Below, piece after piece: positions 5,307-63,150 of a stretch of 64,000 bases of DNA; the stretch's first letter is position 1; every line of letters starts with the position of its first letter. This stretch comes from Urechis unicinctus (Eukaryota > Annelida > Polychaeta > Xenopneusta > Urechidae): the NCBI GenBank assembly GCA_034190875.2, contig CM067343.1:55217445-55281444 (forward strand), read 5' to 3'. A program made the translations under genes and the position numbers. The notes beneath the pieces were generated by a model. That model searched no databases. It saw nothing but the letters and a program-made list of their open reading frames with translations, and was not told where the DNA came from.

Positions 5307-5642
5307 GATATAGCTGTCGACCTTTTAAAAGCCTGTGGGAAATGCGCTGTTTAATTATGCATGTCTTTTGTGAATACTATCGCACTTTGTATAGCGGGTC
5401 GCTATGGCGATGTAAAATCTCAATCCTCGTCAAGTGACGGCAGAGATTGATTTTATGTAGACATTGTTGAAAGAGAACAATCCAATCTCGCACTATGTCA
5501 TATTGACTGCCGCAATAAATCTATTGCTTATAGTTAATGCAACAATCAGGGTGCTTCGAAGCATGGCATAGACGCTGTCCGACAGAGGGATCCTGTTTAG
5601 TGTGGTTGATATATGCTGGCACCCATCTTGTAGACACACGAT

Positions 5643-8600
5643 ATGGCATCCGCAAGGAAGATTAACCACACTAGTCAATTAAGTTAACTGCTGTAATGTG
5701 ACGTTTTACGAGATGGAGGTTCATAACTTCAAAATTGCTGGATATTTAGGAACCCATTTCTGCAAAAACAAGCATGAATGTGCCCTGCAGTGTTTGCTTC
5801 AAGCTGACTGCTGTCATATTGGGCTTCATCAATTGGATGACGGATTTCATTCCTACAGGTTATCAGATCCAGCTTGCGACCCGACGTATAGGGCCGTTTA
5901 CAATCAATCTGTTGGTAAGTCCGGTTTATTACTTACATAATGTTTTGCAAGGAGGACAAGTACCTAGGCGCGTGAATCAACTAAGTTATACCGCGACTTG
6001 AAAAGTCTTGCAGGTCGATCAATTCGACATATCTGGCGCCACATCTTGTTTGTTAATCATACAATACCGCATTATTAACATCCTTCGTACTGAGGTATTG
6101 TTATCATTCTCTGCATTGACGTATATATTTTGTCCTGGTCAACTAAGTTCGACTTCATTAACAAAACATATGGTTAGCACATAGTGACGAGACTTGAAGA
6201 ATATGGCCAGAAATTCTTTGGTTGGTTGTGACATCAGCTTTCATAGCGAAGTAACTTACCCGGTTTGGCGACATAAGGCATGTCATACGCTCTGAATTTG
6301 TCACCTCAAAACATTACCTTTCATCTACTACTTGCTTTCATGCTAGCACAACTTGAGTTTAAACAATTAATTGACTACAATCCGCCAACCTGTATTATTG
6401 CATCATAGAGCCAAAATATCATTTAACTTTTTTGTTGTTGGTCGCAGTGAAGTGATCGATTGCCTTCTGTTGATACTGACGTAAGCCATTGCTTTTTATT
6501 TCCTGGTCTATATGGGTAGTATCGTTAAATACGCGGGTTACGTGCTGTATATGTATGTAGTATGTAGTAGGTTCTTAGATGAAAAGTATAAACAACATGT
6601 TTGTTACGATTCCTGCTTTGTAGCGTTCGGGCTATTGGTGCCGTTCTGTTTCCGTGGGTTATGTATAAGTATTTTCCAGTGAATTAGGAAAGCATTGTGT
6701 AAAAGTTTCTGTCGTAAAGGATCTCAGGTGGGTTTACACCTGGTGCGGAAAGTGGAGTCGTCCAGTATATTGCTTGATAAGTGATGAAAGATCTCTTTTG
6801 ATGTCTACTTTCTGTTTGTGCAATGCATCTTCGATTATCTAGAGGTTTGTTTGTCCATCGATCATCCCAACTTGCCCTAATGTCCACATTGTTACCGTTA
6901 AGGATTGAAATTAATGCGACTTTTTAATCCGCAAACTTGAAATAGTGAATACACATGGGTATGCAGAATAAGTAATAATATCAACTTCAGGTCCAAAAGA
7001 AGACTTCTGATAAACACCATATAAGCATGTGGGTCGCTCTTTAATTTATCGTAATGTCTACATAATAATAATAATAATACAATTCATTGTTCTGGTTTTT
7101 GTTGTAAAGCGGTACAGATTTATCGGGATATATATGTATATGGTATACTTTGTCCTATTTTAAACATTGAATGAAGTTGCGCATAACTTAGTCGGTAAAG
7201 TACAATCATTGTTCTAGATGGGAGCAAGCCGACTCTCTAAACGAGCTTGTGGTTGGGCTATCCTGCACATTTTTTTTCGGTTTGATGCGGTATCTTATTC
7301 TAATTGATGGATATTTCAGGGGCTATATTCCCTGGTCCTTTTGGCGCAGCGATAATGATATTTTCTCGACCAAAAGCATTTTGCCACACGTTTGATAGGA
7401 TGATAAATTCACAGTTTGCAACTTGTTTTTTCATATCAGAACTGATGCATAATCGATTTCCTTTGGCAATGTCAAAGCCGGCAGACTCCATATAAAGCAA
7501 TAATTGCATTTTATGAATCTGCTGACATTTTCAGGATATGGGGAGCTCGTACCACAGGACTGCGTCGAATTGTACACTGCAGGGTTCGTCGAGTCCGGTT
7601 TGTACACAATATACGCACACAGGTCTGGTCAGCTCCAACCAATAGCTGTTAACTGTGATATGGAGACCGACGGTGGAGGATGGATGGTTAGTCAACCTGT
7701 TGGTTGAGGTTCAAACAACTCTTAATTGTCCATTTGATCACAACGCATTTCGATGTATATTGATATTTTCGGCATCATAACATTTTGGATTACCTAAAAC
7801 ATTATTCATAATAGTTCATCAACAATTCAAGGCCACGAGTAATGTTCTATTAATGCATTTACCCTCGTTAAGCAGAGTAGCATACCTCACCAGATATGTG
7901 CTTCTCCGAACATAGTGGATTGACAGGTGTATCACTATGCGTCAAATGCCACATTGACGACAATGGTTTGCTGCAGTTACTATTTCTTGCTTAAAGGTTT
8001 TCCAAAGACGGCAAGATGGCTCGTGGACTTCTACCAGAACTGGGAGGCTTATGCTAAAGGTTTTGGCAACATCAATTGGGAGTTCTGGATTGGTATGTTT
8101 ACTGCTCTTAGACCGTGTATACGTTAAATGCGACAACGCACCGTTGTTACTATGCATTTAATTAAAACACGCCACTATAGAAGACGTTTCCAGAACATGT
8201 GACGTCAGTCAAAGGGTACAAACATACTTGAAAGTATCAATATGTTCATATATTTTGTAAGAATAAAAATGTATGCAATACCAGGTAATGGCTTCTCCAC
8301 CTCCCAGAAACCTCAGCAGCTTAGAGTAGACCTAGTCGATCACGAGGGATTTATCGCTTACGCTCAATATGACCACTTTTACGTTGGCTCATCATCGGCA
8401 AAGTTTGCAATGAACATCAGAGGCTATACCGGCAGCGCAGGTGAGCAGTCCGCCGGCCACTAAGTCTGCGCTAAACACTTCGACACGGTATTCATATGTT
8501 TTAGCGTGAAATTGGCACTGGTATATGGTATTGATCGGACACATGAGTGAATTAAGTTTGTTCACGTCATCTAACAATAAACAAATGCGTATTTTCCAAG

Positions 8601-8905
8601 TACATATGCGTAATCTTTTGTTATCTTTAGGGGATGGCCTGAGTGTACATAATTCTCAGAAGTTTACGACTCTGGATCAAGACAATGACAGTATTAGTCC
8701 AAACTGTGCCCGATTGTTCTTTGGAGGTTGGTGGTATAACGCATGTCATCTCTCAAACTTGAACGGGTTGTACGCAGAGACCGGCAATCATAACATGACG
8801 ACATATGCTCAATATGTGACCTGTTATCCTTGGCGGGGTCATCACTATTCTCTCAAATTCACTGAAATGAAGATGAGATCATACGACGTTCAGCTCCGTA
8901 ATTAA
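5643..8905 (+). pseudogene. PAN/FReD secreted lectin pseudogene (copy 1, five exons)
   Basis: This is the decayed paralogue of the intact gene at 43987-47246. Recognisable exons are about 5643-5914 (PAN/apple-like), 7535-7686 (start of the fibrinogen-related domain, with GGGWM), 7997-8092, 8285-8440 and 8631-8905, with the same GT-AG introns as copy 2. Lesions against copy 2: the first exon has a 1-bp deletion and an immediate in-frame TAA after 14 codons, then a loss of about 58 bp that removes the hydrophobic signal segment. Exon 3 is 96 instead of 97 bp (a G missing near 8022), shifting the frame inside the VDFYQNW region. The conserved NGEFW is NWEFW. Exon 4 lacks 9 bp, so NELLHLLT becomes NGFST. 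A Trp near the C-terminus is Cys. The stop is CAG, extending the frame by four codons. PAN, calcium-loop and WWY motifs are still readable, so decay is fairly recent. Confidence 0.88.
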
Positions 8906-9279
8906 TTAACCTTCCCCGAAGTGGAGCTGTACTAGAAGGATTATGTTGACATCAGTTGATTCAAATGGGCTTCAGAGGTTACTAGTTGTTACAACAAGCC
9001 GGATGATTCTCCTTTTCAGTGGAACACTGATATCAGTCTAGTTATGGCCGCATTTCTATCAGACCACCGCTTTGCACGGGTGGCTGAGAAAATATAATGA
9101 AAGTAATCTATGCTTACAGATTAATACATCTAACTATATACTGTTCATATATAGAAGGAAAATCGAAGAAAATTGCGTAAATAAGTGCGGCCTACGTCCG
9201 CTTGTAAACATGCACATCGTTCCTCATGACTATATCATTGTGCTGTCGGAAATGTTCGCATTGGCATAGTGTTTATCCG

Positions 9280-10140
9280 GCAGCTATATGGGCTTGGTAA
9301 GATGCAGTGACTACAAAGACTGCTTCCGGTGCTATGGCTACATAAGCTTGTGTAGTGGCTATATTTGCTAGGTCGAGTTCATTGGCAATATAGGCTGGGT
9401 CAGGTGCAGTTGCCAAATAGGCTGGCTAATGAGTAGTGGTAATTTAAGCTGTGTCAAGTTAAGTGGCTATTCAAGCTGGCTCAGGTGCAGTTGCAACATG
9501 GATATAGGAGGGTTACTCAAGTGGTTAGCTGGATAGGTTTGCTAAAGTGCAATAGCTACATAGGCTGATTCATGTGCAGTTGCTATTTCAATTAGGGCCA
9601 GGTGAAGTGGCTTTATAGGATCGATCATGTCCAGTGGCTTTATTGGCTGATTGAGTAGCAGTTGCTATGCAAGCAGCAAAAGACACAGTGACTTTATTTC
9701 CGGGTCGAATGCAGCGGCTATATAGGCTGAGTCAAGTGCAGCAGCTTGAAGGGGTCGTGATGAAAGGTTAAAGTGGCTAGATAGGTTGGTTCAGGTGCAC
9801 GGCTAAATAGTCTGGTTTGGGCGCTGTTGCTTTATAAGTGGAGCCAGTTGCTATGGCCATATAGGCCTTTCAAGATTCGGTTGCTTGAAAGGCTTCGTCC
9901 AGTATAGTGGCTACACTGGCTGACCCAGGTGCAGTAGCTGTAAAGGTTTGTTTAGATGCTGTTGATAGAAAGGCCCGGTCAGTTGTAGTGGCTATACGGG
10001 CTGGTTAATGTGTAGCAACTGAAAAGGATGGGTTAGGTGTTGTGGTTTTATGGGCTGGTTTGGTTGAAGAGGCAAGAAAGACTCGGACAGTTGTAGTGGC
10101 TATACGGGAGAGTTCAAGTGCAATGGCGTCATCGGCTGGT
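9280..10140 (+). repeat. Degenerate 27-bp minisatellite (block A1)
   Basis: About 860 bp of imperfect tandem units of roughly 27-28 bp, with a rough consensus of TGGCTATATAGGCTGG followed by CTCAGGTGCAG, some 30 units. Units differ by substitutions and small indels, so the array is old. An orthologous, similarly degenerate array of about 760 bp lies at 47625-48383, which shows that it predates the duplication. No open frame persists through it. Confidence 0.85.
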
Positions 10141-10152
10141 CAGGCGCAGATG

Positions 10153-11330
<1,178 letters not shown>

Positions 11331-11338
11331 TTTGTATT

Positions 11339-12420
11339 GTGCTTTTCACAAAGGAGTGGATAGTAGAGCGCGATGACTTGACTAGAGGTGACACAAGCCT
11401 CCAAACTTCACAAAAGCCCTCAGCTGTTCCGCTAAAATCAGAGTGTGAATCCCCACGTCCCTACCAGTATAATGACCAGGACAGTGGTCATCCCAACATT
11501 TGGGCAAATGACTTTTCCCTCCATAGTAATGTAGTCGCGACCCGTCCCGTTAACAACTACTCATCCGCTTCCTTATGTTACCTTGCTCACACCACAGCTA
11601 CTCAACAATTCCAATTGATGGGGCATTGCTGATAGCTGAGATGACTGGTTGCCTCAGTACACGCGCTATGCCCAATCGGCTAACCGGTCGGAAGCCGCAA
11701 ATGTTTCTGCAATGCCTACCTTCCTCTCGGGCCGAGCCAGCGTACAGTACGAAACGATTGTGCGTGATGAATGTATCACCGAATTCGCTGCTCGCGCGAT
11801 AAATTATTTTTGGCGTTTCGGATTCCCACTTGCAGTCAAACATGTTTATCACACATTTGCGGCCATGTTTTTGAATTGAGCTCACGTTGTCGTTCCAACG
11901 TACACATAGCTGAACGAAATCACGTAAGCGTAATCACGTTGCGTCACCATATACGAAATCAGACAATCAAGTGGGCGCTTTTGCTGATAGACGCGGCAGA
12001 TCTCGAGAATGCCTGGACAGTATTCTCAACTGCGCACCTTCTTGAATGAACGTAAAAGAGATGTGAGAGCCTCGTACAAGACCCCATCCTTATCGCGTTA
12101 CCCGTCGTCATCTAAAAGATCCACACCTCACTATGATCGCCGTTCAAGGGACAGGATGGACCGTCGTTCTCAGCGTACGTCAAGATCCTACTCCCCGCGA
12201 CAGAAGGACGTCTTCGTCTCCACGTCGCTCGTCCATGCAACAATGATTATGACATGATGATTATGACAACGAATTCACACCAACAAGCCGCCGCCGCTCC
12301 ACTAACATTAGGCGCTAGCGCTCCTCCAGCAGGTCCCGCTGACGATCGCCAACACCAAGCGCTACAGATGCGGCAAAGAATGGAGCATCGTAAGGGAAGG
12401 TACTTTAAAATAAGCAATCA
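11339..12420 (+). pseudogene. Ty3/gypsy-like gag remnant (block A1)
   Basis: A decayed retrotransposon gag region in several frames. The first frame (about 11339-11632) matches copy 2. A second contains a WLPQYTRYAQSAN-like segment (about 11648-11690), resembling the start of retrotransposon gag capsid domains (PPKF...W..WL..F...A). A third ends in an Arg/Ser-rich basic tail (about 12060-12230) that continues in broken frames to about 12420, as expected for a nucleic-acid-binding gag C-terminus. Compared with copy 2, the segment holding PPKF has been deleted. No zinc knuckle and no pol were found next to it. The gag assignment is by inference from motif and composition. Confidence 0.5.
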
Positions 12421-13530
12421 AGTTTAAATAGTTTGAGGAAAGTTAAGAGAGTTCAATCAAATAATTCTGTCAACTCCGCCTTCTTTAGGATCAAACGGTG
12501 CAAATTAAGATTAAAAAAACTCATCCTGCACATCATTGGACAATGGCGCGCGAATTTTATGCATCGACAGCCTTTTTTTAAGAAAATTGTCTAGTAATAT
12601 TCCCCCTGTTATCGATGCATGAAATGAAGTTGGAATGGGCAATAAAGGTGTTATAATCCGAATATTAATCATTGTAGATATATGATTTTGTTAATATTAA
12701 GGTAAAAGACATTGAAGATTGACCATAAACAGAAAATTATAGCAAACCGCCTTGTGCGAAATAGCAGAGTAGGTTAAGTTGCTATCATAACGTAATTTCC
12801 GGTTTGCATACATTGGCGCATGCGATCACAGCAATCCACATCGTCATCTTCACCATTATCGTCATGCGCATATCAAATGGACGAATCAACATAAAGAACC
12901 TTAACCTAAAAGTCCACATCAGAGGGCACGAATAATTCCATATCTCAGACCAAGCTTCCATGTGTAAGGAACACATCCACTGGTTTTATCTTTTCCACGG
13001 AAAGGGCATTAAACTAATCAGTTGAAATGTTATTTGCGATAAAAAGAACTATATATGAATATTGCCGATATAACTATTTTAGTACCATAGTTGTGAACTG
13101 ATCAAGTGCTACAAAATATCCTGTTCACGCTTAGTGACAACTGACGATTTATCTCTGTAAAGTAATTCACGGGTGAATATACGGTCCGTTTTTGCGCCCA
13201 AATTGCTAATTTGGAAAAGCCCACACCACTCACTCTGTTGACGACAGGTCATTGTTATACCCTGGTAAGTGTTCGAAGGTTAGCGGGAATCGAAATAGAT
13301 TCAGGGTGCACAAAGTACATCAGCATCGGGTTTGTCTGGTTGTTGCATGCCCTGCAATTATTTATTTGGGTGGTATGAATCGTTTGCGGTGGAACTAACA
13401 ACTCGTCATGACCAAGTTAAGAAAAATATCCCTTTTCAGAAAATAGGGAGTCTGCATCCCAATTAAGAGAATAGCTGACTTTTGATTTATCATTGGTAAA
13501 GTCTATGACTAGAACGAAGTGGCATGCTCC
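12421..13530. other. Anonymous sequence, no gene seen
   Basis: No supported exon, repeat or mobile-element domain. About 45 bp near 13197-13240 (AAATTGCTAATTTGGA and following bases) reappears at 50523-50563 in unit 2, between blocks A2 and B3. At least this scrap was therefore part of the ancestral unit, and unit 2 has lost the sequence around it, or unit 1 has gained it. Confidence 0.5.
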
Positions 13531-13534
13531 GTTG

Positions 13535-13881
13535 TTATATATATATATATAGAGATAGATAGATAGATATATATAGATAGAGAGAGAGATATATAGAGAG
13601 AGAGAGATATATAGATAGAGAGATAGAGATATAGAGATATATATATATAGAGAGAGAGATATATATAGAGATAGAGAGAGAGAGATATAGAGATAGAAGA
13701 GATATATATAGATATATAGAGATATATATAGAGATATATACTAGAGAGATAGATATAGAGAGAGATATATATATATATAAATAGTATCTATATCTATATA
13801 TATATGTACATATATATACATATATATATGTATATATATACATATATATATATATATATAGATATATATATGAATATTTTT

Positions 13882-13919
<38 letters not shown>

Positions 13920-13962
13920 GTATATATGTATATATATACATATATATATGTTTATATGATTT
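13535..13962. repeat. Compound GA/TA microsatellite
   Basis: GATA/GAGA-type units from 13535 to about 13775, passing into TA/CATA repeats up to about 13962. The block is absent from the corresponding place in unit 2. Open frames across it are repeat artefacts. Confidence 0.93.
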
Positions 13963-14099
13963 ATTCAGTTTATTTTACCATTTTTTCAATGTATGTTTAT
14001 ATTTTATAAGGCTAGTTGCACCGCTATGACCTTTTAGTCGTTAAACCTTGTTAAAATATATTTGAAGATTTATATTAGAAGGTTGTTCCAGTGAAGTAT

Positions 14100-15250
14100 T
14101 CCTTGCATTCATAGAGAGAACGATGAAAATTTTGGGTATGAACCACAGACATGAAGAGAATGAATTGTTTGGCTATATTATTCAAATCTGGGCATGACTG
14201 ATCCAGGGTATCGTTAATGCACAAAGCAAGTTAAGGGATGGCATGACCAAAAAAATTTGGGGGATGGATCGTCATATAAAAGGCTGCATTTTCGGAATTT
14301 GATTTAACTTTTATAGTATATTAATTGCTAGTTACCGCCGTTAGATATCTAGTAGAGCCGATTGGCCTCCATATGACGAAATGGAATTGGGGAGGTCTTA
14401 AAAGCTCCGAGCCAAAGTTTGAGAGCCTTATTTTAGGATAGTCTCCCATTCCTTCAAATATGACGGACGGCTAGATGTAGTGTTTCAAATGCAGCGGGTT
14501 TGATATTTGACAGAGCTGAATATATAAAGAAGCACAACCTTAAAGCAAAGAATTTTCATTGGCTTGCCAATGCCCTGTAGGAGGGAAATAGCGGTGTAAA
14601 ATATTTCGGCTTGGGCTTGTTTGTGTTCCAAAATATTGGGAAGTGGTCATTTTTTCACTGGTCTTGACCATTCAATTACAATGATGGCGAGCATAAGCTT
14701 AGGGCTACGGCGGATAGTGATTTGCGGTCGAAAAAGAATAAAGTTTAATTTCCTCAAAATTCGACTGAAATCCTCGACAGTTCTTTTCGATGATTGAATT
14801 AGCCATTTGGTGGCTTTTTATTAACCCAAGGTGGATACCTAGGGCAGATTGGCGCAGATCCCTACTTGGAGGCTTATTACAGATCATTGTCAAGATTCAT
14901 GACGTCAAAGCTGTCTTATCTGTTATACACTTTGATATGATCTGAACAGTACAAGGTATATTGGGACCTATAAGCGTCCTTTTAAATGATTGGCGTTTTT
15001 GCGATTGATCTGTTGCTTCTACTAGTGTGCTCGTTTCCGTTGTTGACATTGTGGATGATTTTACAGTGGTTTGAGAATCGACAGATGAACGTTGGGTGGG
15101 AGCATCGCTGGTCCTTAGCTATGTTAACTCCATTTGAGTAGCATTTTATTTCGTTAACTTAGCCACGGGGTTTGTCCCTACCATCACACTGGTGTATGAT
15201 AAAATGATGTGTCATGCAGTTCCCATAGCCAGAGAAGAATGTAAACCAAA
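14100..15250 (-). mobile_element. I/jockey-like non-LTR retrotransposon remnant
   Basis: The minus strand carries two recognisable pieces of one LINE. Near 14790-14740 the segment EKNCRGFQSNFEEIKL resembles the start of the apurinic-like endonuclease of I/Nimb/jockey elements (usually QWNCRG..AN.EEI..L). Near 14440-14330 the segment KALKLWLGAFKTSPI, followed by HMEAN, matches the end of the reverse-transcriptase/thumb region (LGAFRTSP...VEA). Only about 300 bp separates them, so most of endonuclease and RT is deleted. A Ser/Thr-rich stretch upstream (about 15150-15000) could be the end of ORF1. Many stops and frameshifts make it inactive. The ends are uncertain. It has no counterpart in unit 2. 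Confidence 0.6.
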
Positions 15251-15545
15251 ATAATTGAACATATCTCTGTGAAGGAAAACAATATGCTACCGTTTAAATC
15301 AGAGTCCACAAAAAAACCATTATTCTTTTTACGCTTAACCACATGCAAAAGAACGCCATCCAGATAAGAGTCGCCTCAAGTGACTTGCCCTCACAGATCA
15401 AATATAGCGGTACAATTATTAAATATGCATGTTTTGGTTGTGTAATGGCTACTAAACCGCATGTCAAAGAAAGTTCAAGTCAGATAAACGACTAAATGTC
15501 AGATGAGTTGATGTCATTGAAACGCAGAAGAAGTACAGATCAGCA

Positions 15546-15988: not shown

Positions 15989-15990
<2 letters not shown>

Positions 15991-18900
15991 GCAATAGCAT
16001 CAAGAGCAGTTTCGTACTAGCATGAATGAATTATGCAAGCTGGTTACCAGGTGAACACATATTGGGCCACCAACAACTGACAGTCGTTTCAGTTATTGAC
16101 TTTATATAATGCTGAATATACCCACCACCTAATAGCTGCAAATAAAACAGTGTGCGCCGCAGTGCTGGTGTCCTATAATAGATGCAGCAACTAACGATCC
16201 AATGGCAACACAATCACAGCCAGTGCTTGTTTTTCCTAACTGCGAACTTGCTGAGGTTATCTACTTCAGCTCAATCCATTTCCACTGTCGTACCAGTTAA
16301 ATGGTACTTTCCAGGTAGCATGACTTGGATGAAGGCATTAACCCACACATGAATACAATATATTCCTTATATCAACAGCTCTATACTATCAACTAATCAC
16401 CATCCAGAGTCGTTCGAATTTCATTTCGTCGCCACATTTATTCGCAACTGACATGGTCCACACTTTTACAAGTCTAGTTAACACAATTTCATTGACCACA
16501 CATTGTTAACAGAGGTCATGTTATGTTGAACAGCATATAACTTATTATAGTTAACGGGTGGTTCATTTCATCAGCGCATAGATGGAAGAAGATATTTTGG
16601 CAAGAATCCAATCGGCATCCCCAGATAATAATGTTCATTCTTTATTTATTGGCAAACAAATAATACTCGTTCTCGCCCCTGTCCATACAGTATGTCTATT
16701 CTGAAGAGAACTTAGCATTTGTATCATAATGCAGTCAAACAATGATCTCACAGGCATATGGGTTAAACCTATATTCAATTTGTGATACTATGCCATGCCC
16801 CATTTGTCGTGATGAATTGTTAGCTGAAGACATTGCCAGCATTGAGCGGTTGCATCCGTCGGGGTCTGATTAAATCACAAAACAACACTTAACAAGCCCC
16901 AGGGGCATAATAATTGTTCTGTTTGTTCACGACGTTACCTGTTCCAATTACCTTTTCCAAACATAACATTTTGTTGTTTATTGGCTATGTGTTTGGTTGC
17001 TAGTACGATGGCCTAAGTGGTTTGTATCGGCATTGTTATAGTCTTATTGCCGACAAGTGCAAATATGACGTGTATAAAAAGATACAGTGCAAGATATCTT
17101 CAGCAATGTTGTATCCCAAATAGCTACGAACGTTATGTAATGGGTAGTATTGCTACATTATCTGTGCCGACAATATCAAGCTTCGACATAAACGACACAA
17201 CGGCAGTAAAACCGATGAATTGCTGGTACCTCTTTGCTTTCTCGGTCTTATACTATTTATCGAGTTCTTTCGACTTGTGAGATCATCACACCATTTAAGA
17301 AGCACAGTCAGAGTACAGCAGAATTTAGACATAGGACACGTCAGGTTTTGTATATTTAGGTGAAAACCTTAGGTTTGAAATCCTTGAAATGTTCCTGTCC
17401 CTTTGCCCTCTTCTTTACTTCCTTTTAGTCTGCCATGTCGCTATCGACCATTGCCACGTCCAGCATCGTTACGCTTCGTGTCCATGGAGGGTAAAACACG
17501 GATGGATTATATGCTTTTATTCACTAAAGCATTACTATGCTCCAATATTCGCTTCGTGCTGGAGACTTGACTAAGCTTAGACGAGGCACAATCGACCTGT
17601 AATTCAACAATCAGACTACCGAGCTGCATAGAATTAATGCAGAATACACTTGTGCATAACTTTCTAGGATTATGTGAACCCGGTCGGTTTTACAAGGTGT
17701 AGTAGCAATAACAAATGTGCTCACAGCATCGTTAGAAAACAATATTTTAAACGATGTGTAGCGTATACAAGTGGGAATTTCTAGCAGAGCAAAACTATTT
17801 TTTCCCTATTTACCACAATGGCCATTATATAATTATGCGTGCTTACCAGCCGCATCCAAAAACCATGACTATTCTCTTAAGTAATTGCGGTGTTGTTAGA
17901 AGCTCCCCGCAGCTTTCATTTTCATTTTTATTCAATGTGTTGATATGTGAGCGAAGCAACCAAGGTCACGGCCATTGCTGTTAGTGACTAAAAGCCGTAT
18001 CTCTGCACACTGTTTGATTAGCAAGGAACTGATCTAGAATCAATTCATCACATCCTTATGCAAGATCGCTAATGTATCATTTTCATAATGCTTGAATGTA
18101 CGCATTGGTTAATTGTGCACGTGCTTAACGTCTTTTTGATATTGAGTATTTTTAACCATTTTCATTGCATTATTAACAATGGCACAGAACAATAATTATT
18201 GAACTATAACGGATGAATGACCTTTCCTGCGCTACCAAATTGACACTTGATATGCGGGAATTAAACAGGATGACTACTAAAGGCGCATGACATGTGCTTT
18301 TAAATATCATTTGCCAAGGTTAGGTGCGATGTTATATCATGGCTCGTGGATATATTCAGCAAAAGATGAACTATGATAATATTCATTAACACCTGTCCTC
18401 AATTAATCTTATATTGGGCTAGATGGGACGTGCCCGTCCCCCTACAATTGTATTTTACTGTTCGACGAACGCGCATTATTTTGGCCGTTATTTTGTAGTA
18501 AACACAAATCAATAAATCTTTGCGTCTTCGACAGTGTCGTATCCATATATTAGGCTTGTGTTGTGCATCAAAGCATTTCAAAGAGCCAATATAAGTCTGA
18601 TAATTTCCTGACATATTTCCCCACTATGATGATAGACACTAGGCTACATTATCATCCCTTTAAACTCTACCCCGTTGTTTGTTGTGACATGTTTATGCCA
18701 CTCTCTATATAGTACCAGCAACGTACCGAAGAGCAGTATACCATCTAAACGGAACACAAGGTAGAAACAGTTCGACATTATATTAGCATCTTGCCTGCCA
18801 ATCTTCTATTTAGAACAACCGAGAACTGTCTTAGAGCGCTATTCAATGGCTGGCTTCATATAACGATGGAAATAATGAAATCTGGTATCTGAGCAGTGTT

Positions 18901-48880: not shown

Positions 48881-48937
48881 TATCAAATATATATATATGT
48901 ATATGTATATATTTATATATATATTTTATATATTATA

Positions 48938-49020: not shown

Positions 49021-49022
<2 letters not shown>

Positions 49023-49547
49023 GATGAGCGTGGATAATAGGCAAAGTAGAAAATGGTGATGGCTTCTGATTTCTATGCATTATTACAAATGGATGGACAC
49101 GTTCTTCTGATAATATCTGTGTATTTTCTTCGATCTTTATAAGATCTAAGGAAATAGATTTATTGCATGTACATTGTCTATTTTCATTGGAAGTTAGCGC
49201 AGGGATAAATGCAACATGTGTTGACTGATGATTGTAATTATCTGTGCTAGTTGTAAATGATATGTTAATGTCACGCAATATATATTGATGTACTCGTTAA
49301 TGCAGATCTTGCTTGGCACGTCCAATAAATATTAGTAATACATCAAATTTGTTCCAGCAAATATTACCTTTCATTCTCCCATATCATACATAGCAAACAC
49401 GGGAACTATTTATGGAGTTATAGACAAACGGCCATGTCGAATCCATATAACGTAAATATACAGCATGCCTTCATATCTCCTATACGATAATGCCTCTAAT
49501 CAAGCGTATAACTATATGCTGCTGTATTTAAATGGTCTGTTTGTATT

Positions 49548-50520: not shown

Positions 50521-51140
50521 CGAAATTGCTAATTTGGAACAGCCCATACCACTCACTCATTTTAACGACTCGTGATGAATTGTTAGCTGAAGACATTGCC
50601 AGCATTGAGAGGTTGCATCCGTCGGTGTCCGATTAAATCACAGCACAACACTTTACATGCACCAGCGGCTTTATAATTTTTGAACAGACGACCGACCTGC
50701 AAAGAATTTATGCAGAATACACATTGACATAACTTTCTAGGATTTTGTGAACCCGGTCGGTACTGCTGTATGTTATAGCAATAACAAATTTGCTCACGGC
50801 ATCGTTAGAAATATTTTAAAAGGTGTGTAGCGTATACAGCTGGGGATTGCTAGTAGAGCAAAACTAAACGGCAGCGTTTCTCTATTTACCACAATGGCCA
50901 TTATATCATTATGCGTGCTTCCCAGGCGCATCGAAAAACCATGACTATTCTCTGAAGTAATTGACTTACATTCGATGTTGTTAGAAGCTCCCCGCAGCTG
51001 TCATTTTCTTTTTCATTAATTGCGTTTATATGTGAGTCCAGGCTCACGGGCATTGCTGTTAGTGATTAAAATCGGTATTTCCGCACAGTGTTTGATTAGC
51101 AAGGAACTGTATTTCTCGAATCAATTCATCATATTATCAT

Positions 51141-51360
51141 GCAAGAACGTAATGTATCATGCCAGAACGTAATGTATCATGCAAGAACGTAATGTATCAT
51201 GCAAGAACGTAATGTATCATGCAAGAACGTAATGTATCATGCAAGAACGTAATGTATCATGCAAGAACGTAATGTATCATGCAAGAACGTCATGTATCAT
51301 GCAAGAACGTAATGTATCATGCAAGAACGTAATGTATCATGCAAGAACGTAATGTATCAT
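51141..51360 (+). repeat. 20-bp minisatellite, 11 near-identical copies
   Basis: Eleven head-to-tail copies of the 20-mer GCAAGAACGTAATGTATCAT. Unit 2 has GCC for GCA, unit 8 has GTC at the GTA position, and the rest are identical. Block B1 has a single related unit at about 18060-18080 (GCAAGATCGCTAATGTATCAT). The array therefore arose in this copy after duplication, and its near identity marks it as recent or homogenised. Confidence 0.97.
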
Positions 51361-52261
51361 GCGGAAATTGAAAAGGATGAAGTTTGACTACTGAAGGCGC
51401 ATGACATGTGCTTTTTAAATATCCTGTGCCAAGGTCAGAGGCAATGTTATATAATGTCTAGTCGATATATACAGCACAAAGTGTGATATGATAATATTCA
51501 TCAACACATGTACTAAATTTATCTTATATTGGGTTGAATGGAACATTCCCGTACCCCTACAATTGTATGGTACAGTTCCTTTTCTTTACATACGGTTTAT
51601 GATTGCCATTATTTTGTAGTAAACACAAATCAATAAATCTTTGCATCTTTGACAATGTCGTATTCATATATTAGGTTTGTGTAGTGCATCAAAGTCTTTC
51701 ACAGAGACAATATTAATCTGATTAGTTCCTGTAATATTTGTCCCCACTATGATGATAGACACTAGACTACATGATCATCACATTAAGCTCTACCCCGTTT
51801 TTTGTTGTGACATGTTTATGCCACTCTTTATATAGTACAAGCAACGTACCGAAGATTAAACCATTCAAATGGAACACACTTGAGAAACAGTTCGACATAA
51901 CATTAAAATCTTGCCTGCCAATCATAAATTTAGAACAAACGAAGCGGTATTAAATGACTGGTTTCATATAACGATGGAAATAATGAAATCCAATACTAGA
52001 GCAATGTCTCGTAGCAATTGAGGCGGTTTTGTAAATTGTGCGCATGGCATTCCAAGTGAAATGTCACAACGAACGACCCGTAGGAATCACAGATTAAATT
52101 TGCTTCTTCTGCTATTAGCTCATAACAACCCGAGTATGAATGTGTTGCGTCTTGCTTCGATAAACATTGACACTACTTCTATAATGCACAATGGAATCTG
52201 ATTACAACACAATTATGAGAATGGGTTTTGTTTTATGATCATTTCAAATGAGAATGGGTGC

Positions 52262-54335
52262 TGATAATGATAATGATTATTTATTTAAAGCCCATTCCAT
52301 ATACATCTCAACAGGCTGTACAAGTTATAGCAATCAACAATGATAAATAATACAATACAAGACTAGCAATGATTAAAGTGTACAGCAATAATAGGCTACG
52401 GCGAATTAATCGATTGCACGTTCATATAATTTGATATATCACCGGTTAAAAGCGATCCTAAAAATGTGCGTCTTGAGTGCTCTCTTGAAACTCTTGTATG
52501 TGCTGATCGAGCGGACACGTTCGAGTAGCTCTTTCCACAATCTCGGTCCAGAATGATACAGGGATCGCTCACCATAACGGTTTAGTCTCTTGGCCTCACT
52601 AAGTGGAGGCGGAACTAATCGTATCTCCGAGGAACTGCGAAGCCAGTGAAGCTCTTGAAGGATCGGTGTCATTTCTTGTCGTGATTTGAATGACATCCTG
52701 GTGACCAGTCGAGCTGCAGAATTTTGTATCAGCTGCAATTTTCTGATTTGATAGTTGGGGAGGCCGAATAGTAAACTGTTACAATAATCTAACCGGGATC
52801 CTATGAATGCATGTACCAATATCTCCGTTGTTGGTTTGCCCAAAAGATGCCTAATTTTGCCGATTCTTTCACAGAGCGTACGACGCAGCGCTATACACAC
52901 TAGAGATGTGATCCGTCATAGAGCCGTAACTATCTATAACCACTCCTAGGTTGCGAGCAGACTGTGAGGGGAAAATAGTGACTTCACCCACCCGTACGTC
53001 AGTCACCGGTGCCCGGTCCCCGACTTTCTTGTGCTTAGAGGTGAACCAGAGAAGTTCCGTCTTACTCTCATTGAGAGCAAGCATATTAGAACGCATCCAG
53101 AGCCGGATCTGGTCCACACAGGCCTCAATGGAGGCAACGTCAGAATAGTCAGTTCGTGATCGGCAAGTGACATACAGTTGGGTGTCATCAGCAAATATTA
53201 CAGTATTTAGGCCATAGGCCGTAATGATATCTTCCAATGGGGACAAATACAAGGAGAATAGACCTGGTCCAAGTACGGATCCTTGAGGGACACCGTAATC
53301 TAATGACTGTGGCTCCTTCGACACCATTGAACCAATTGTAACTTTCTGAGTACGGCCACGAAGGAAGGACTCGAACCAATCGAACACCATCCCCGAAATA
53401 CCCAACCGCTTACGTAACCTGTTCATCAGTATGTCATGGTCAATGGTGTCGAAGGCAGCTGAAAGATCAAGCATGATTAGGATGACATCCCGCTGCTCAT
53501 CGAGAGCGAGCATAACATCGTTCTGCACTCGAAGGAGTGCAGTCTCGGTGCTATGTCCCTCACGATAAGCAGACTGGAATTTACCATATAAAGAATTAGA
53601 GCTAAGATATTCATTCAGTTGCGAGAAAGCACACTTCTCCAATAACTTGTTTAGGAAGCTACAATTGGACACCGGTCTGTAGTTTTTAAACTCGTTCCTG
53701 TCCAAGCCAGGCTTTTTGATCAATGGGCGTACCATCGCCGACTTACACATTTCTGGGAATATACCTGTGGCAAAAGTGCCATTGATTATTCCCGCCAGAA
53801 CGGGGGCTACGCAGTCAATACAATCCTTCAGTAGCTCGGTTGGAACCGGGTCCAACGAGCACGACTTGATAGGCATCGCCTGTACCATTTTGATGGTGTC
53901 CTCGACTGATACAGGTGCAAAGTTCGTCAACTGGCATGGTGGCGTATACGTGGATTCAGGTGAAGATTTGCCCCTGCAATCCTCTCACGAATGTCCAAAA
54001 TCTTTTGACTGAAGAACGATGCAAACTTATCAGGAAGACTGGCTAAGTCACCGACACAGTCTGGTAGTATCTGGGGTGCTGACTTCTTCGAACCGGATAT
54101 CTCATCAACAATTCTAAATAATGAGCGTTGGTCCGCGACGTTGATGCGATCACGATGGTATTGGGACTTTGTATCATCTAGGAGGCTGACGTACGCTTCA
54201 CGTGCGCCCTTGAAAATCTGTTTGTCAACCTCAAGACTGGATGATTGCCACTTCCTCTCTAGGCCGCGTCGTGTCCGTCGCTCATCCATAATTACCGTGG
54301 TGAACCATGGCGCGTGTTGTTTAATGATGCTTTCT
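52262..54335 (-). mobile_element. 5'-truncated CR1/L2-like LINE with RT domain
   Basis: The minus strand encodes the second half of a non-LTR pol. A linker after the endonuclease comes first (54376-53927, with HAPWFT and RRGLERKW), then reverse transcriptase (53930-52870, with NYRPVSNCSFLNKLLE, LDLSAAFDTIDHDIL, GVPQGSVLGP, the catalytic FADDTQLY and RNLGVVID), then the C-terminus (52900-52439, with RLDYCNSLLFGL and LQELHWL). Two breaks are visible: a frameshift near 53970 and, near 52875, one extra A plus a CGA-to-TGA change after SYAL. The 3' end is a short TGATAA-type repeat followed by AATAAATAA-like sequence on the minus strand, typical of CR1/L2 tails. It interrupts block B3 only, so it inserted after the duplication. 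The endonuclease is missing. Confidence 0.92.
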
Positions 54336-57300
54336 TTTTTCGGCAGCAAGGCACTAAATTTCGATTTAGACGCCAAATCATGTCATGTCAAGTAATTTAG
54401 ACCCTATTATGGCGCCTGTGTTTAGCATTGCGCCTTGCTCAATAATTGACTAACTCTCTCGGGGATTAACCATCAAACGGCACCAGACTATTATAAATAG
54501 CATTGCATTCATCTCCTTTTGACCTTGTGGCCAAGAATGCAACATCTTAGACAGGCTGTCAGAGCATGTTTAATAATAAATTATGCATATAGTAGGCATC
54601 ACGATCAGGCAAATTTCATTAGAGTTCACACCTCTCTTGTTTGTGTTTGTATATATCGCTTTGCCGAGCATATGAGCAGATATGTTCATTGATTAATGGC
54701 AATGGCGCGCGTTCTACGGTGTATAAAGCATGCACAACTACTCCCACTTGTAGACTTCCAATTTAGCCCCCCCCCTTCAGTGTATATGTGCTTTGCATAA
54801 TTGGTAACTATCTAAGAGGCACTGTCATGCAAATGTTTGCAGAAGAGTTCAAAATTGGACCCAACAGGCTCACAAATATTGTTTAAATTGTTTTGTAGAA
54901 CTATGTCTTAGAGAAATGCAGGTTTAAGTGTTGCAGCAACCCAGATCAAAAAAGCCAAAATTGCTAAAAAAAAATCAAGCAGGGGATAAAAACTAGCGGT
55001 TTCTTTTTACACTTTTTACAATCACCCATAGGTAGATGCCAAATTGAATGTTGACTTACTAATACCTCATGGTGTGGTCCATTTAACCATTTGTCACGTG
55101 CACATTTCGGTGCCACATGATGCTATTTGCTGTGACATTAATACCGCCTGCAACGTCAACTCGAAATCTTATCGGTTTTTCAGATTAACTAGACTCGGCG
55201 ATCGTGAGGCGAGGAGTTTGGATGGGTTTTCATGGGTTTCTCATGACTCCAAAACATATGTTGTGTATAGCGCAAAGCATGGGCATTTCCCTATTACCCA
55301 TCTTGGGCATGATACACGTATATCATCAGTAATGCTAGGATCAATAAAAGGCTATCATAACAGAAAGAGTAAGTGTCTTTTGTAGATTATTTACAACACG
55401 CTCAAATCTGCTGCCAGAATGGATCTTGCTCAAGTCAATCATATATTTATTGATCTGAATGGTAATAAAATGTCGGACGATAAACTGACATCTAGATTTG
55501 TTGTGACATAACTATCGCCAAGACACAAAGGAACAGATGTAGTACCAATACAACGTCCATTGTGTAGTCCTGCATAAAGTGCATGAATCATCACCCTCCA
55601 CAGCGGCCCATGGGAATGGGTAGATAGAATCAGCTTTATTAATGAGGGGTGCGACCAATGGTAAAAGCTGCAGAAGCACAAGGATCAATAGCAAATAAAA
55701 CGAGAGCGAAATATATTGCCCTTGATTGAACCGAGAAAAGCATACAGTGGCTTCTCGCCCTATTGTCCATTAAAACGTTATATCAATTTAATGCCTTCCG
55801 TCTGTTTATCTGATGTCCATTCTCTGCGCAGTAAATGTATGAAATCTATTTCTATACTTTTTCTTCAAGAACACATCTTTATGCAATATAAATGTGAAAA
55901 AAATCCTTTAATTGACAAAATGGGGCAAATCTACACACCACAAGCAATATAAATCGAGTCCGCACAATATATTCATAGCTTCCGTTGACGTCCGCTGCTA
56001 ATGTTTCGATACCAGAAGAATTGAACGTTAATGCATGAATTTCATAATGACTGTTGGGGGGCGTTGTTCAATAAACATTAAAGAAGGCTGTCCGTCACTA
56101 TCAGAGGAGGCGTTTTGGAACTATTGCTACTGCTAAGACTTATACTGCTGCTACGTTTTCCGTTGCTGCTTATGTTCATGAGGGTACTTCTTGTTATTCA
56201 ACTATGAACTATGAAATCTACCAATGAAGTCGTCGGAGCACTACACTGGAGCTCATAATAAAGAAAGCTGTAAAAAAGTCACACAAATCATATATCGTTA
56301 GCATGTTTTGATAGAGATATGTAATGATTTTCTTAAAATGAACATTTTGATGAAGACATTAGCATATATATAGCAATAAAATCTAAACGGATAAAAAATA
56401 ATTTGATAGCGGATGAAATAACTACATAGAAGTAATTATCAATATCGCCCATATTTTTCCCATCATCGATTTATCTACGACCGCGCATGGTCCCATTTCC
56501 CTCGGTAGTGCTCTTCGTGGTTATTGTTTGTAAAAATTAATCAATATTTTTCTACCAAAGAGCAACCGCTGGCCAGCTATGTGGAAATCATAGAATCTCG
56601 TCTGTGTGTTTCTTTTGTAGCTTAGTGTTGCATAAAGAAAAAGACATTATATTCCGCGGACTCATTCTGTAGGGCTTTGTAAATATATAGAGATATATAG
56701 AGATATTCAAGGTTTCGAAATAAAACTGCACACAACTACATTGGATTTACAGGAAAAGAATATTTCATAATATTTTGATTAAATTGCCCTAATGAATAAT
56801 GAGTTGGAATGATGGGTAAACACAAGTATGCATTGCGCTGTTATTCAGCTAGAGTTATAATATATAGCTCATTATGGCTATATTAGCCCAATTGTCATTG
56901 CACGATAACCCTGATATGTCATTATTTAATAGAAGACAAACATATGCCAGGATCTTTGAATGGCAGACGCGAAGAAAACCTAAAGATGACCACATTACAT
57001 TGGTGTTGAATTGCCAGCGTGTGTTTTTTGTTCGAGGGATTGTTTCCATGAATATAATGGCGGACCTATTCACAAGGTTCATACAGTGACTTGGCTGTTG
57101 TCTCTGACGATAGTTAGCTATTGTCAATTAATATCGACTCTCTGAAATGCTTAATACAATTGAATGGCATCACAATATTTTGGAAATTTATATATTCTGG
57201 TGTGTTAAACACTTCTCCGTTTGAAAGCATTCCACGTGATTTACGAAGAGGTCTGGAAAATGTAAACCGCGTTGGTATAGACAAATTGATGCGCATTTAC

Positions 57301-57990
57301 CATTAGAATGCTTCGGGTAAAAAACACAATACACTCGCGTTTTCCCGTTTTTCGGATGTCTGTTCTTTAAATAAACCGCTTGAGACAAACTAGTCGCTTC
57401 TAAATCCTAAACGCTTGATATGTTTATTATTGCACTTTCCTAGACGAGCATTAAGTGACTGCATTACAGTTATTTCCTTAGCTCACCAGACTTCACCTTG
57501 CCAAAACAAACAGCAAACACTCGCGATATCGATGACCTGTGCCAATCATGACCCATGTTACAAAACATAAACCAACGCAAAAATCTCGAGAACATCGACC
57601 AGGAAACACCTAGATTATAATTGACTCCCTAGAACTATCCGGGGAGATTGTGCTTAGTTTAAAAGTTTATAAGATAGGTAAAGGAAGCAGTACCGCTTAT
57701 ACCGCTTAACCAGTACCGCTGCATGTGCTAACCCCACCCTGCCCTCCTCCATACAAACTTTACCAGAACAGTATTTTCGGAACACATATTAACAATTAAA
57801 GTATAGGAAGACATGGTCAACAAGTCTAAAGATCAACGGTGGAAATATAGTACAGGTCATAATCGATTTACTGATAGGCAGAGGGAAATCGAAGATTCTA
57901 TGGTACGGTTAAAACGACGCAACCAAATGCAGATATAAGTGTTTGAAAGAAATTTGGTTGTTGTTAATTATTAAAGGAGGTTAAGGATTG

Positions 57991-58439
57991 AATTTCTATT
58001 TAATCAGTAGATTCTACTGATACTTTGGGATACAAAATTTCAGTTCAATTGGGGCATGTCACTGGCTCTATCCACCCATGCAATACATGTGATCAGCAGA
58101 AATGTTCATCAGCAGAAATGTTTATGGGTCAGCATACAACCTTTAAAATGCATTCAGTCATGTATATCGATAGACGCATAAGCGCCTATTTATAGGTTTT
58201 TTTAGAAGATACAGGCAAACATATGGGTTAAATTTCTATTTAATCAGTAGATTCGACTGATACTTTGGGATACAAAATTTCAGTTCAATTGGGGCATGTC
58301 ACTGGCTCTATCCACCCATGCAATACATGTGATCAGCAGAAATGTTCATCAGCAGAAATGTTTATGGGTCAGCATACAACCTTTAAAATGCATTCAGTCA
58401 TGTATATTAATAGACACATAAGCGCCTATTTAGGCAAAC
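57991..58439 (+). repeat. Tandem duplication, 240-bp period, two copies
   Basis: AATTTCTATTTAATCAGTAG begins at 57991 and again at 58231, exactly 240 bp apart. The copies differ at only a few positions (for example TCTACTGA/TCGACTGA near the start). The second copy is shortened at its end by about 30 bp. Block C1 has this sequence once (about 32390-32610), so the event is private to C2 and recent. Confidence 0.96.
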
Positions 58440-58910
58440 ATATGGGTTCTACGTTTGATAATGATGTAGACTCTTCACTTATCGCATTATGGTCAACGTC
58501 TATGGTAACATTAAGGCTGGAAAAAGTTGCCAATAAATATATGGTTCATAGATAATGTTTTTTGTAAAAAGCTCGAATTTGTCAATATTGCGCTGACACG
58601 TCGTATTGCGATCCTATCTTTATGATGCAATGCCATGTCATACGCAATTATAGCCAGCAGCGTAATGATTGCCAGTAAGGAAAGGGCTTCACAACGTGTG
58701 TCATAGTAGTTTGACATTCACTTTTAGCTGTTATCCACAGCAGTCGTCGTAACGCGCCTCAGCGGATAACTGTCTGAGGCAGACTAGGCGGATTTACCCA
58801 GGTGGCTTAACCAATTGAGCAAAAAGCCAACCAACACTGAACTATTGTTTGATGTCATTGTATGGCAATGTACTCGGAATAAAAAAAACCGAGGGGTGAG
58901 TAACCACAGG

Positions 58911-59173
<263 letters not shown>

Positions 59174-59628
59174 CACTTGTGTGGCATGGTATATGTGAAT
59201 GTAGTGAAATGCTATAACGAAAAATGGTAAGGAATGTTTTGTTCATAAACGAATACTTACCGCAACTGCCTGATTAAACACTGCATCCCTACCAGTAGTG
59301 AAAGATGGCTACCACAAGTGATCTATTCGGAACGTCTGCCTTCCTTTGTCATTAATATGCTCTGACCTTGCCCTCCAAGGTGTAGATTTGATGGCCTATT
59401 ACATGCACTAGGACTATTCTGCAATATTTTTCAGTAGATACTGAGCAAGATATAACCAAATATAGAGCTATCCGTCATGCTCTATAAATGATCGTGTCCT
59501 CAGATTACTCATCCATCATCACATTTGATTTGGATAATAGGACGATGTTCTATAGAACATCATCATTTTTATGATATATTAACTTCGCATAATCAAAACA
59601 CTTATCGGCGAACTTAAGTAGGCATATA

Positions 59629-59830: not shown

Positions 59831-59842
59831 TATAAAATGTAT

Positions 59843-62800
59843 ATCAATTATCTGTTTGACAGCAAATATGTTAAAAGAGTCATTTAATCCTACGATGGTT
59901 ATTCGCAGAGCTGATTTCCATTGACTGGCAGTAATTAATTTTTTCTGTCACATATGTAGATATCATCATTACCGCATTGCTATCCCTGGGTCGATTCATA
60001 TTTATCTATTGAATATTCCATCTTGCGAATATTACCTTTTTCCCGCTTTCCAATCACGTACGTAGCAAATAAAATCAGGCACAGAATCATGCAATCAGTG
60101 TTGCAAAAAGGGAAATGATTTACGGCGGATATTACACAAACAAACGCGGCGTGTTCAATCTGTGTATCTTTAGTTTTACATTGTTAACGTTTTGCTAATG
60201 AGGCCGTTTGGATTAGGGGCATGTTAAAACTAAATTCATAGCACGATCAAGACAAGGAATTGTTGATTGCAGCATGGAGACATCTTTGCCATGGAATCGG
60301 GCAGATTGCAATAAGATATATTCTATTCTCATGGAATCATATTGCGGCAAAGCTACCAAGAAAAACCAGCATTTCATTTGAATATATAACTGGTAGAATG
60401 TTTATCGAACTAGATCATGCAAGTGGAACATTACTTACTCTTTTTAAGCACGATATACGCCATCTGTTATGCGCGTTTGAAACAATGGCATGTTTTAATT
60501 TGTGAACGCGCAATAAATCCATTCCAAACAAATAGAGCTGTTTTCGTTATTGCGAAAATATCGATATTCTAATTAGTAATGAATGAAAGGTGTGAAGGGA
60601 CCGTACTCTTGTAGCTATAATTGTATATTGATTAAAAGTAACTGCGGAAGACCATGTATTATAATGGGTCGTAATTATGGTATAAATATTATAGTGTATA
60701 CAGCACGTATTATATAGTGTATCTATTAAGACACTGATACTTAAAAACATTAAAATTTGCGGACAAAGATGTGCATACAGGACATTTGAATTGATTATCG
60801 TTTATGATTCCGAATATAATCATCTAGCCAACATAACACACTATATGTCAAGCAAGTTAATTGATAATTTCATGGCTTAAACATCGGAGCAGTTTCATTG
60901 TTACTCATAGATGGTTCCATAGCGCAAAATATGGTTGTCGATATCGGATGCTTTGTCTGTTTATTTCATCAATTTATAACATGGTCAACTACGATAATGA
61001 CAGAAATATTATTCCTGAAGGCATATGTTAGTATTTATGTGAGAATGATGTGGTCTGAAGCAAACTTACCATAACCAGACGTGTAATCAGGCATAGTCAT
61101 AAGCATCAAAGAAACCGTATTAAAATATTCATATGCTTAACTGCAAAACGTCAGTACTACCATACATATTGATCATTAACTCTTGTATATTCTAATGGTG
61201 AGCATGCCATTTTTAATGGCCTCGATGATTTTATGCCGGGCATGATAATTCATGAAAAACGCTGCTGTTAAGTTGCCTGGGTAGATGAAAAACATTGGCG
61301 TTCTTGCCTAGAAGCAACTAACACACTGCAGTAATTGCAGAAAATGGTTATTGTTCTGCATATTGATCAGCAGGACGGGTAGCGGTACTTTAAGTGGCCT
61401 CAAAAAAAGCCCAACGGTACAGTAAATATTGCTCTTCCTCTGGTGAATGATGACCCGGGTTATTAAACAACAGCCGTAATGGCAGCTTGGATGCTGTACC
61501 CCATGCCGGTTCTACTGGTTGAATCATACCAATGGCCTGCTCATAGCAGATAACGCGTGGCTATAACATCAGCAAACTAAATAACAAGGCCATATTGTCG
61601 TAGCAAAAGTAATGCACCGGTGGTTCACCTGAATTTATTCAACAGCAATCAGTTACAAATTTCAATGCATGTCTATTCACGCCACATCAAGGTCAACATG
61701 CTGATATTACGCAGTCAGACCCTAATATACAGTTTACCCCCCCCCCCCCCCCTCCTTCCCATAAAGATCGTCACGTTTGAGACACTTACAATTATTGCCG
61801 GTCTTATAAGTCCTCTAAACAATCCAGTTAAGCGCTACAATGTAGCACAATCCTTCGTTTATGCATGATGTTCATTGTTTGCTATGGTCTTGCTTGTTGG
61901 TGTCAAACTGACATGCATACTTATGTACACGTAAGCGAGGTTTACTTAAAATGCAATCTCACCATCTATGATTGAAAGCGATTTATATCTGACTGGGCGG
62001 CTCAAGATGTTTGCTTGGTCCGTATTTTCTTCTTACTATACGCAAGACAAACGGCTGCCAACTTCTTTGCGCCATATTCAGGGATAAGTTTCCCCTAGCG
62101 ATCAGTTTTAGGCCCGAAGTGCATTAGCTTAATCTGTCCAAAGTATTGCGTGGGGGTCAGAAGATCGATACAGAGCCACGGAACGCTTTATTTGTATGAG
62201 ACTCAAATATTTTACAAAGCAGCATTGAACCAGCATTCGTTTATTGACAGCATGACTAATGAGACATCATAGCGTAACTAGAGGAAAGTACACTGAGGGA
62301 GGCAAAGACGCCTAAATGTAATATTTACTCAAATACAATTTAGCTACATGTAGGGATATGTTTCTTTTGTTGACATGGAGTGGAAAAAAAATTGTTATTA
62401 AATTACTGCTCAAACAATTTAGTCAGCTTTCTCGTAGCTTAACAAAGGCGCGGTGAATCCCAGGAGGCTTGCCATTGATCTGTTGAACATTGACAATAGT
62501 AGAAAAAGTACTACACATTTATCACAGTGAAAAAGGCATGTTTATGTTCTAAACGCAGACATGATCCGAAGCATTCCACATATTCATGAGAGAGACTGCG
62601 CATTAGAAAATGGATTGTGTTGTATTTGACACCAGCGATAAATTGTGTTGTTTTATTTAATGAGTAGGTAATCTTGGTTATCATTATTGATGTAAAGACG
62701 GGATATAAATCTATTATGCCTCATGCTTAGAACTAACATTGATCACACTGTCAACAACGGCCCTGGGTGTCTAATTAACATGCCAAACGCGTGTCTAAGG

Positions 62801-63150
62801 ACGTGATTTGGCATTTATAATGATACAAGCGTCAACTTTAGCTGCCTCTATGACAAGCTTGTGCCAAGTGTTTTTAACTGTGTAATAGTTTCGGTTATCA
62901 TAATATACCTTCTTTTATATCACCTTCGCCCATTCAACAACCATTAATTTCTCTTGTGGGATAAAATAATTTTGTTTAAGGGTTTTTTTTTGCCCTTTTC
63001 CGCTGGTCTGTGTAATAATTTTCAAGTCCAGTTTAATCAACCTTTGACCCTTGTTCGGGAAGAGATACAACCATTCTTGCAAATACTACATCATTAATAG
63101 CGATAGCCTATGCACGACATGTTCCGCGCGATGCATTGTTGGGTAGTGGT
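59843..63150 (+). repeat. Segmental duplication block D, copy 2
   Basis: Direct homologue of 38930-42345. It lacks a segment near D1 40835-40925, has a private insertion near 61560-61620, and has a run of sixteen C at 61737-61752 where D1 has nine. The homologue of the small D1 frame at 39205-39420 is broken here by in-frame stops. Homology ends near 63150, the right limit of the duplicated region. Confidence 0.9.

Follow-up and report, generated by a model that had tools for sequence, protein, structure and literature searches.

A probable old tandem segmental duplication among duplicated modules that surround a fibrinogen-C-domain lectin gene in Urechis unicinctus

Two collinear units and the modules around them

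The locus is very probably a real and old tandem segmental duplication, set amid a cluster of duplicated modules round a fibrinogen-C-domain lectin gene and followed by loss and insertion. The window, the whole 64,000-nucleotide stretch analysed, is contig C2:55217445-55281444 of a 1.19-Gb assembly of 926 contigs. Self-BLAST of the TRF-masked window showed the order A–B–C–D repeated collinearly in unit 1 (5328-42342) and unit 2 (43666-63143) (Table 1). Twenty-four of the 25 inter-unit matches were direct, and the lone inverted one spans 189 bp (21062-21220 / 55841-55653). Part of the direct matches are secondary, coming from B' against B2 or from a 27-bp minisatellite, and the principal matches keep a single order. 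First-order Markov shuffles of the window were free of off-diagonal matches in all five cases. The original prediction of four blocks with conserved order and orientation, and the block coordinates, were borne out by this self-comparison and by a block-wise divergence check. Its two further statements also held: noncoding DNA and exons align about equally well (K2P 0.063-0.138 in intron and 3' DNA, compared with a coding dN of 0.063 and dS of 0.169), and the extra B block, B', is real, being 67-72% identical to B1 and 66-76% to B2 over the longer matches and up to 87% over 77-89 bp.

Two parts of the original prediction needed revision. Homology was placed to end at 63150, yet the tail of D in unit 2, V2, matches beyond the window at 74274-74613. 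Since V2 resumes past an inserted element with terminal inverted repeats (TIRs), 63150 is an insertion edge and not the end of the duplication. V1 matches V2 at 82% identity up to 42715 and weakly further on; the similarity of 42716-43154 to the DNA after V2 is weak, with a score that beats all 200 shuffles. A tandem segmental duplication is still the best reading, but a lone two-unit event is not, as the units are part of a larger cluster of duplicated modules in which block E belongs to the wider unit besides A–D.

Table 1. Coordinates of the units' blocks, genes and inserted elements (window positions unless a contig is named)
Feature	Position	Strand or orientation	Basis or remark
A pair	5328-12290 / 43666-50522	direct	82-91% identity
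B pair	16807-20280 / 50570-54974	direct	80-89% identity
C pair	28447-33344 / 55274-59436	direct	76-87% identity
D pair	38902-42342 / 59836-63143	direct	75% identity, gapped
A1 module (A + A+ + A++)	5328..15544	+	counterpart around A3, contig C2:50637298-50646311
A1 gene copy, broken	5643..8902	+	three-way alignment and translation
B1 block	15990..20280	+	self-BLAST, wider-region comparison
Unit-1-only stretch	20281..23885	+	ORF 20523-21071 integrase-like by eye; elsewhere only 0.1-0.2 kb matches
B' block, extra more divergent B copy	23886..28331	+	self-BLAST, K2P
C1 block	28343..33344	+	self-BLAST, wider-region comparison
E block	33894..36305	+	further copies at -44.5 kb, -10 kb, 114 kb and 121 kb (inverted)
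Unit-1-only stretch	36306..38533	-	ORF 37144-37482, integrase-type
D1 block	38902..42342	+	self-BLAST, wider-region comparison
V1, tail of D	42343..43154	+	directly adjoins D1, as at 118500-118728
(AT)n/(TG)n array between the two units	43155..43562		repeat finding
A2 block	43666..50522	+	its A3 match starts at 43605
A2 gene, open, 332 aa	43987..47246	+	translation, Pfam, three-way alignment
A2 exons	43987-44308, 45992-46143, 46341-46437, 46630-46794, 46984-47246	+	GT/AG junctions, 332 codons
B2 block, LINE-split	50570..54974	+	self-BLAST
Non-LTR-type retroelement (LINE) in B2	~52272..54313	-	RVT_1 E 3.7e-30
C2 block	55181..59436	+	self-BLAST; contains 240-bp tandem repeat
D2 block	59836..63143	+	self-BLAST, wider-region comparison
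~11-kb TIR element, left end	63149..64000		right end 74222, outside window

The wider comparison covered 224 kb, that is, the window plus 80 kb on each side, in which five blocks of 2.5-5 kb (22.5 kb) read N; positions outside the window are given in window coordinates. Inverted copies of B lie near -72 and -30 kb and inverted copies of C near -75 and -31 kb. Copies of D occur near -41, 117-118 and 142-144 kb. E precedes D at -44 kb and 114 kb, and V directly follows D at 118500, both as in unit 1. The surroundings of A3 and of four other loci served as controls; their 102,986 readable bases lack B, C, D, E and V, but the loci were picked for their A matches and hence are not random. Two larger structures were also seen: an inverted duplication downstream of the window with arms of ~7 kb that are 79-93.5% identical (84014-90795 / 103552-110747), and, upstream of it, a direct duplication of some 25-30 kb that bears the inverted B and C copies (-75.3 to -43.5 kb / -34.4 to -9.6 kb).

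Such a neighbourhood could also arise if the blocks were mobile or dispersed repeats, each independent of the others, that had come into their shared order secondarily. In favour, both orientations of the modules are found locally, their trees differ in part, and A stands alone at 50.6 Mb. The prevalence of one orientation among the inter-unit matches, the single order of the principal ones, the lack of the other modules in the control bases, non-random as these are, and the nature of A as a multi-exon gene with introns make this very unlikely.

Inter-unit K2P values range over 3.6-fold across slices, at 0.06-0.14 for A, 0.13-0.21 for B, 0.13-0.17 for C, 0.18-0.23 for D and 0.16 for V. Within noncoding A, the first intron stands at 0.138, the DNA immediately past the last exon at 0.063 and the 3' end at 0.133. 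Distances from the third copy, A3, to the unit copies are 0.14-0.20 in noncoding slices, compared with 0.06-0.14 between A1 and A2. Among 933 variable A sites, a count that takes in a stretch of poor A3 alignment, 436 group A1 with A2 against A3, and the other two groupings have 238 and 210. Trees of the other blocks are less uniform. The D_a tree pairs D2 with the -41 kb copy (0.869), at a distance of 0.198 compared with 0.229 for D1–D2. For B1, the raw distances are 0.196 to the -72 kb copy, 0.178 to the -30 kb copy and 0.213 to B2, despite which the tree pairs B1 with B2 (0.988). The D_a grouping and the B1 distances suggest that modules may have exchanged sequence or arisen in separate events. 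D_b distances of ~1.1 to the 143 kb copy were set aside for poor alignment at the edge of the sequence compared. Gene conversion between A1 and A2 was considered but finds no support: the longest run of A1=A2 sites (17 sites, 9299-9424; 0 of 5000 permutations) falls where A3 aligns badly, at the 27-bp minisatellite. The longest runs of the other two A groupings are not unusual (P 0.16 and 0.09).

A duplication of this kind could be false (heterotype), the assembler having laid two divergent haplotypes of one locus end to end. Both units are on a single contig with a simple-sequence array at their junction, and a false join would likewise make homology stop exactly there. False duplications reportedly come mostly from divergent haplotypes, leave two divergent copies adjacent on one scaffold, as here, and characteristically have gaps between the pair (PMC9516828). 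The 6-23% divergence would be compatible with alleles, given the neutral diversity of 16-20% reported for extreme animals (PMC8270832). However, the window has no N and so no gap at the junction, there are more than two copies, one of them far away, and the indels are polarised. The A copy 4.58 Mb off exceeds the mutual divergence of the units by a modest margin only, and B, C, D and E each recur in the vicinity, in some cases inverted. Moreover, the left edge of A2 lies within ~60 bp of that of the A3 module, where an arbitrary contig end would match by chance only, although this argument is weakened by the arrays at these edges, which stop alignments. A false duplication is thus unlikely.

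A real tandem duplication would have begun with an ancestral unit A – B – (B') – C – E – D – V that was copied side by side, in a neighbourhood likewise built of duplicated and inverted modules. Either unequal exchange or the repair of a break may have made the copy, the breakpoints lying within simple-sequence arrays or next to them. From unit 2, A+/A++, a part of B, all of E and probably B' would since have disappeared, and the LINE and the 11-kb TIR element would have entered it; unit 1 would have acquired pieces of retroelements, and its gene would have been lost rather recently.

Among smaller features, the 240-bp tandem repeat at 57991-58432 in block C2 is not doubled in C1 and so counts among the likely gains of unit 2, and a 20-bp minisatellite at 51135-51362 (11.4 copies, 98% matches), found in B2 only, is probably young. 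Rfam at gathering thresholds and ARAGORN returned no hits.

Probable loss and insertion since the duplication

About 19 kb of DNA is found in unit 1 only. By hand sums, 6.6 kb of it has counterparts in outgroup copies, B' makes up 4.4 kb, and ~5.8 kb is without counterpart; the rest consists of simple repeats and unresolved DNA. A+ and A++ (12498-13481 and 14012-15544) also adjoin A3. The start of B recurs as well, 15990-16807 having a counterpart in B' and near -29 kb, and part of 16919-17593 being present in B'. A 0.3-kb piece of C that is absent from unit 2 has a counterpart near -74.7 kb. Because of these counterparts in outgroup copies, loss of A+, A++, the start of B, the C piece and E from unit 2 is the more likely course.

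B' also looks older than the split of the units. In the main B slice, its K2P distance is 0.30 to B1 and 0.41 to B2, compared with 0.21 between B1 and B2; in the short B_c slice, the excess over B1–B2 is within error. B' was probably lost from unit 2 as well.

The stretches 20281-23885 and 36306-38533 have no counterpart beyond 0.2 kb within the 224 kb. They are likely private insertions of unit 1, as the LINE and the 11-kb TIR element are of unit 2. Pfam gave no match for the ORF at 20523-21071; that at 37144-37482 matched Integrase_H2C2 with E 2.4e-5, at 24.8 bits against a cut-off of 25.5. The LINE site is empty in B1, B' and the -72 kb copy of B. A target-site duplication was sought for both elements of unit 2: at the LINE, the BLAST edges overlap by 15 bp (19152-19166) but the bases form no clean repeat, and at the TIR element none is claimed, as the bases likewise hold no clean repeat. 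The TIR element sits between D2 and V2, which resumes by 74274, and its site is empty in other copies. Its TIRs are 63149-63254 / 74222-74117 (91.5% identical) and 66590-66775 / 74081-73894 (83.5%), the left repeat apparently being split by a nested insert of ~3.3 kb. Its broken ORFs look somewhat like those of a Polinton/Maverick, but Pfam does not bear this out: the 8 of 11 listed ORFs that were scanned gave no match of any kind above cut-off, and thus none to DNA polymerase B or capsid genes.

These data bear on the alternative that the short form, unit 2, is ancestral and that unit 1 owes its greater length to insertions. The ~5.8 kb of unit 1 that lacks a counterpart above 0.2 kb in the region, with its integrase-type ORFs, would fit such growth, and the 4.4 kb of B' could be a private extra copy. 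Set against this, ~6.6 of the ~19 kb has counterparts by A3, in B' and near -74, -44, -29, -10, 114 and 121 kb, and B' is more divergent than the units are from each other in the main B slice, if only within error in B_c. We regard this account as slightly less probable even than dispersed repeats.

The size difference had been attributed mostly to retroelement fragments, microsatellites and an extra B block. Insertion does appear to explain ~5.8 kb, but 6.6 kb was likely lost from unit 2. Similarly, the relative timeline proposed from private insertions is only partly right: the LINE, the TIR element and the two unit-1 stretches are likely private insertions, whereas A+, A++, the start of B and E have outgroup copies. 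The locus shows how a timeline of insertions shifts once outgroup copies are considered: at least a third of the DNA that unit 2 lacks has counterparts elsewhere and is probably ancestral.

The fibrinogen-C-domain gene and its copies

Block A contains a gene of five exons whose product, a fibrinogen-C-domain protein, has 332 aa; the gene is intact as a reading frame in A2 and A3 and broken in A1. A3 lies on the same contig, 4.58 Mb from the window (contig C2:50637566-50640277); it agrees with A2 in its five exons and 332 codons and carries A, A+ and A++ with a left edge nearly as in the unit copies. The A2 protein starts with a hydrophobic stretch that looks by eye like a signal peptide. Residues 114-329 match Fibrinogen_C over its full length (Pfam E 1.2e-73, profile positions 2-220 of 221). 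The cysteine-bearing N-terminal segment has no Pfam match above cut-off. A PAN/apple domain, suspected there by eye, was discarded after no PAN match appeared at E 0.01 with the exon 1 ORF or at 0.1 with the whole protein; the sole other Pfam match was PIF3 (E 0.065), below its cut-off.

The best solved relatives of the A2 protein are ficolins, followed by tenascins; with the last exon by itself, tachylectin-5A and MFAP4 match about equally. Like A2, ficolin-1 and tachylectin-5A have a full Fibrinogen_C domain, and their DQDND-type loop and CHxSNLNGxY stretch, which we take to be the Ca2+ and acetyl-group sites, align with A2. A2 differs from lectins of the ficolin/tachylectin type in its cysteine-bearing N-terminal segment without Pfam match, in place of which ficolins have a collagen stalk. 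A2 and A3 probably make a secreted ficolin-/tachylectin-like glycan-binding protein. Between them dN is 0.045 and dS 0.153, a pattern that points to purifying selection, and both copies look constrained.

The A1 copy keeps the start codon and the splice-site words. Its frame closes after 14 codons, with a 49-bp deletion in exon 1 and a single-base deletion in exon 3, and it lacks the stop at the position common to A2 and A3. Along the reading frame, A1 and A2 differ by a dN of 0.063 and a dS of 0.169. Private nonsynonymous/synonymous changes number 14/13 in A1, 7/7 in A2 and 13/9 in A3 (310 of 332 codons kept). These counts do not show relaxed selection in A1, since by this measure neither A2 nor A3 is clearly more constrained. 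Therefore the break of A1 looks recent, with constraint having probably acted on this copy for most of its history. The single-base lesions could instead be assembly errors; the 49-bp deletion is less easily explained so. As assembled, the duplication yields no second open gene locally: the nearby duplicate of a lectin-type gene broke, apparently recently, and the distant copy remained open.

A genome DNA search with A found at least three strong copies and four weak places. Across what is readable of the 224 kb, the only exons of the gene that tblastn located at E 0.01 are those of A1 and A2. Relatives of exon 1 occur at four further loci on contigs C2 and C13, most with internal stops, which suggests a wider, partly decayed gene family. 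One of the four (contig C2:40.41-40.42 Mb) has such relatives at two places, and another also carries a sequence related to the gene's first fibrinogen exon (49%). About 16 kb upstream of A3, 15 residues that match the last fibrinogen exon at its end (contig C2:50621539-50621583; 80%, E 0.009) may be left over from a further copy. The regions upstream of A1, A2 and A3 have no clear mutual match, their scores being reached by 33, 9 and 18 of 200 shuffles.

Simple-sequence arrays at module edges and comparison with an immune-gene cluster

The A1 module has its left edge near a (CT)n array (5022-5297) and its right edge at an (AT)n array (15547-15987). An array lies within ~45 bp of each of the three left edges of A; for the two right edges that are complete, the distance is at most 250 bp. 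Over hand-picked module edges, 8 of 20 have an array within 100 bp, compared with 2.9 expected (P 0.0045). Alignments stop at masked repeats, which biases this test, and we give it weak weight, for the A edges only.

The locus resembles in part the Sp185/333 (SpTransformer) genes of the purple sea urchin, which are clustered immune-type genes with segmental duplications edged by short tandem repeats, inferred deletions and both orientations (PMC5103432). The sea-urchin system is described as having 15 predicted genes in three clusters, almost identical duplications, an almost complete lack of pseudogenes, and GA and GAT arrays (PMC5103432); in the present locus the gene encodes a fibrinogen-C domain, one copy is open and another broken, the divergence is older and the arrays are of AT/CT type. 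The locus probably works like other invertebrate immune-gene neighbourhoods (compare PMC5103432); it is of modest interest and otherwise represents ordinary gene-cluster evolution.

The neighbourhood might be one in which a lectin module, bounded by simple repeats, was repeatedly copied and trimmed, arrays setting the edges and one copy moving 4.58 Mb. We consider this doubtful, if somewhat less so than a false duplication; if true, it would be a second system working like the short-tandem-repeat-bounded immune clusters of sea urchins. As a natural experiment of modest reach, the locus can help to test whether duplication edges are marked by simple-sequence arrays. The window holds many long simple arrays, among them an AT-rich one of one kilobase at 2429-3451.
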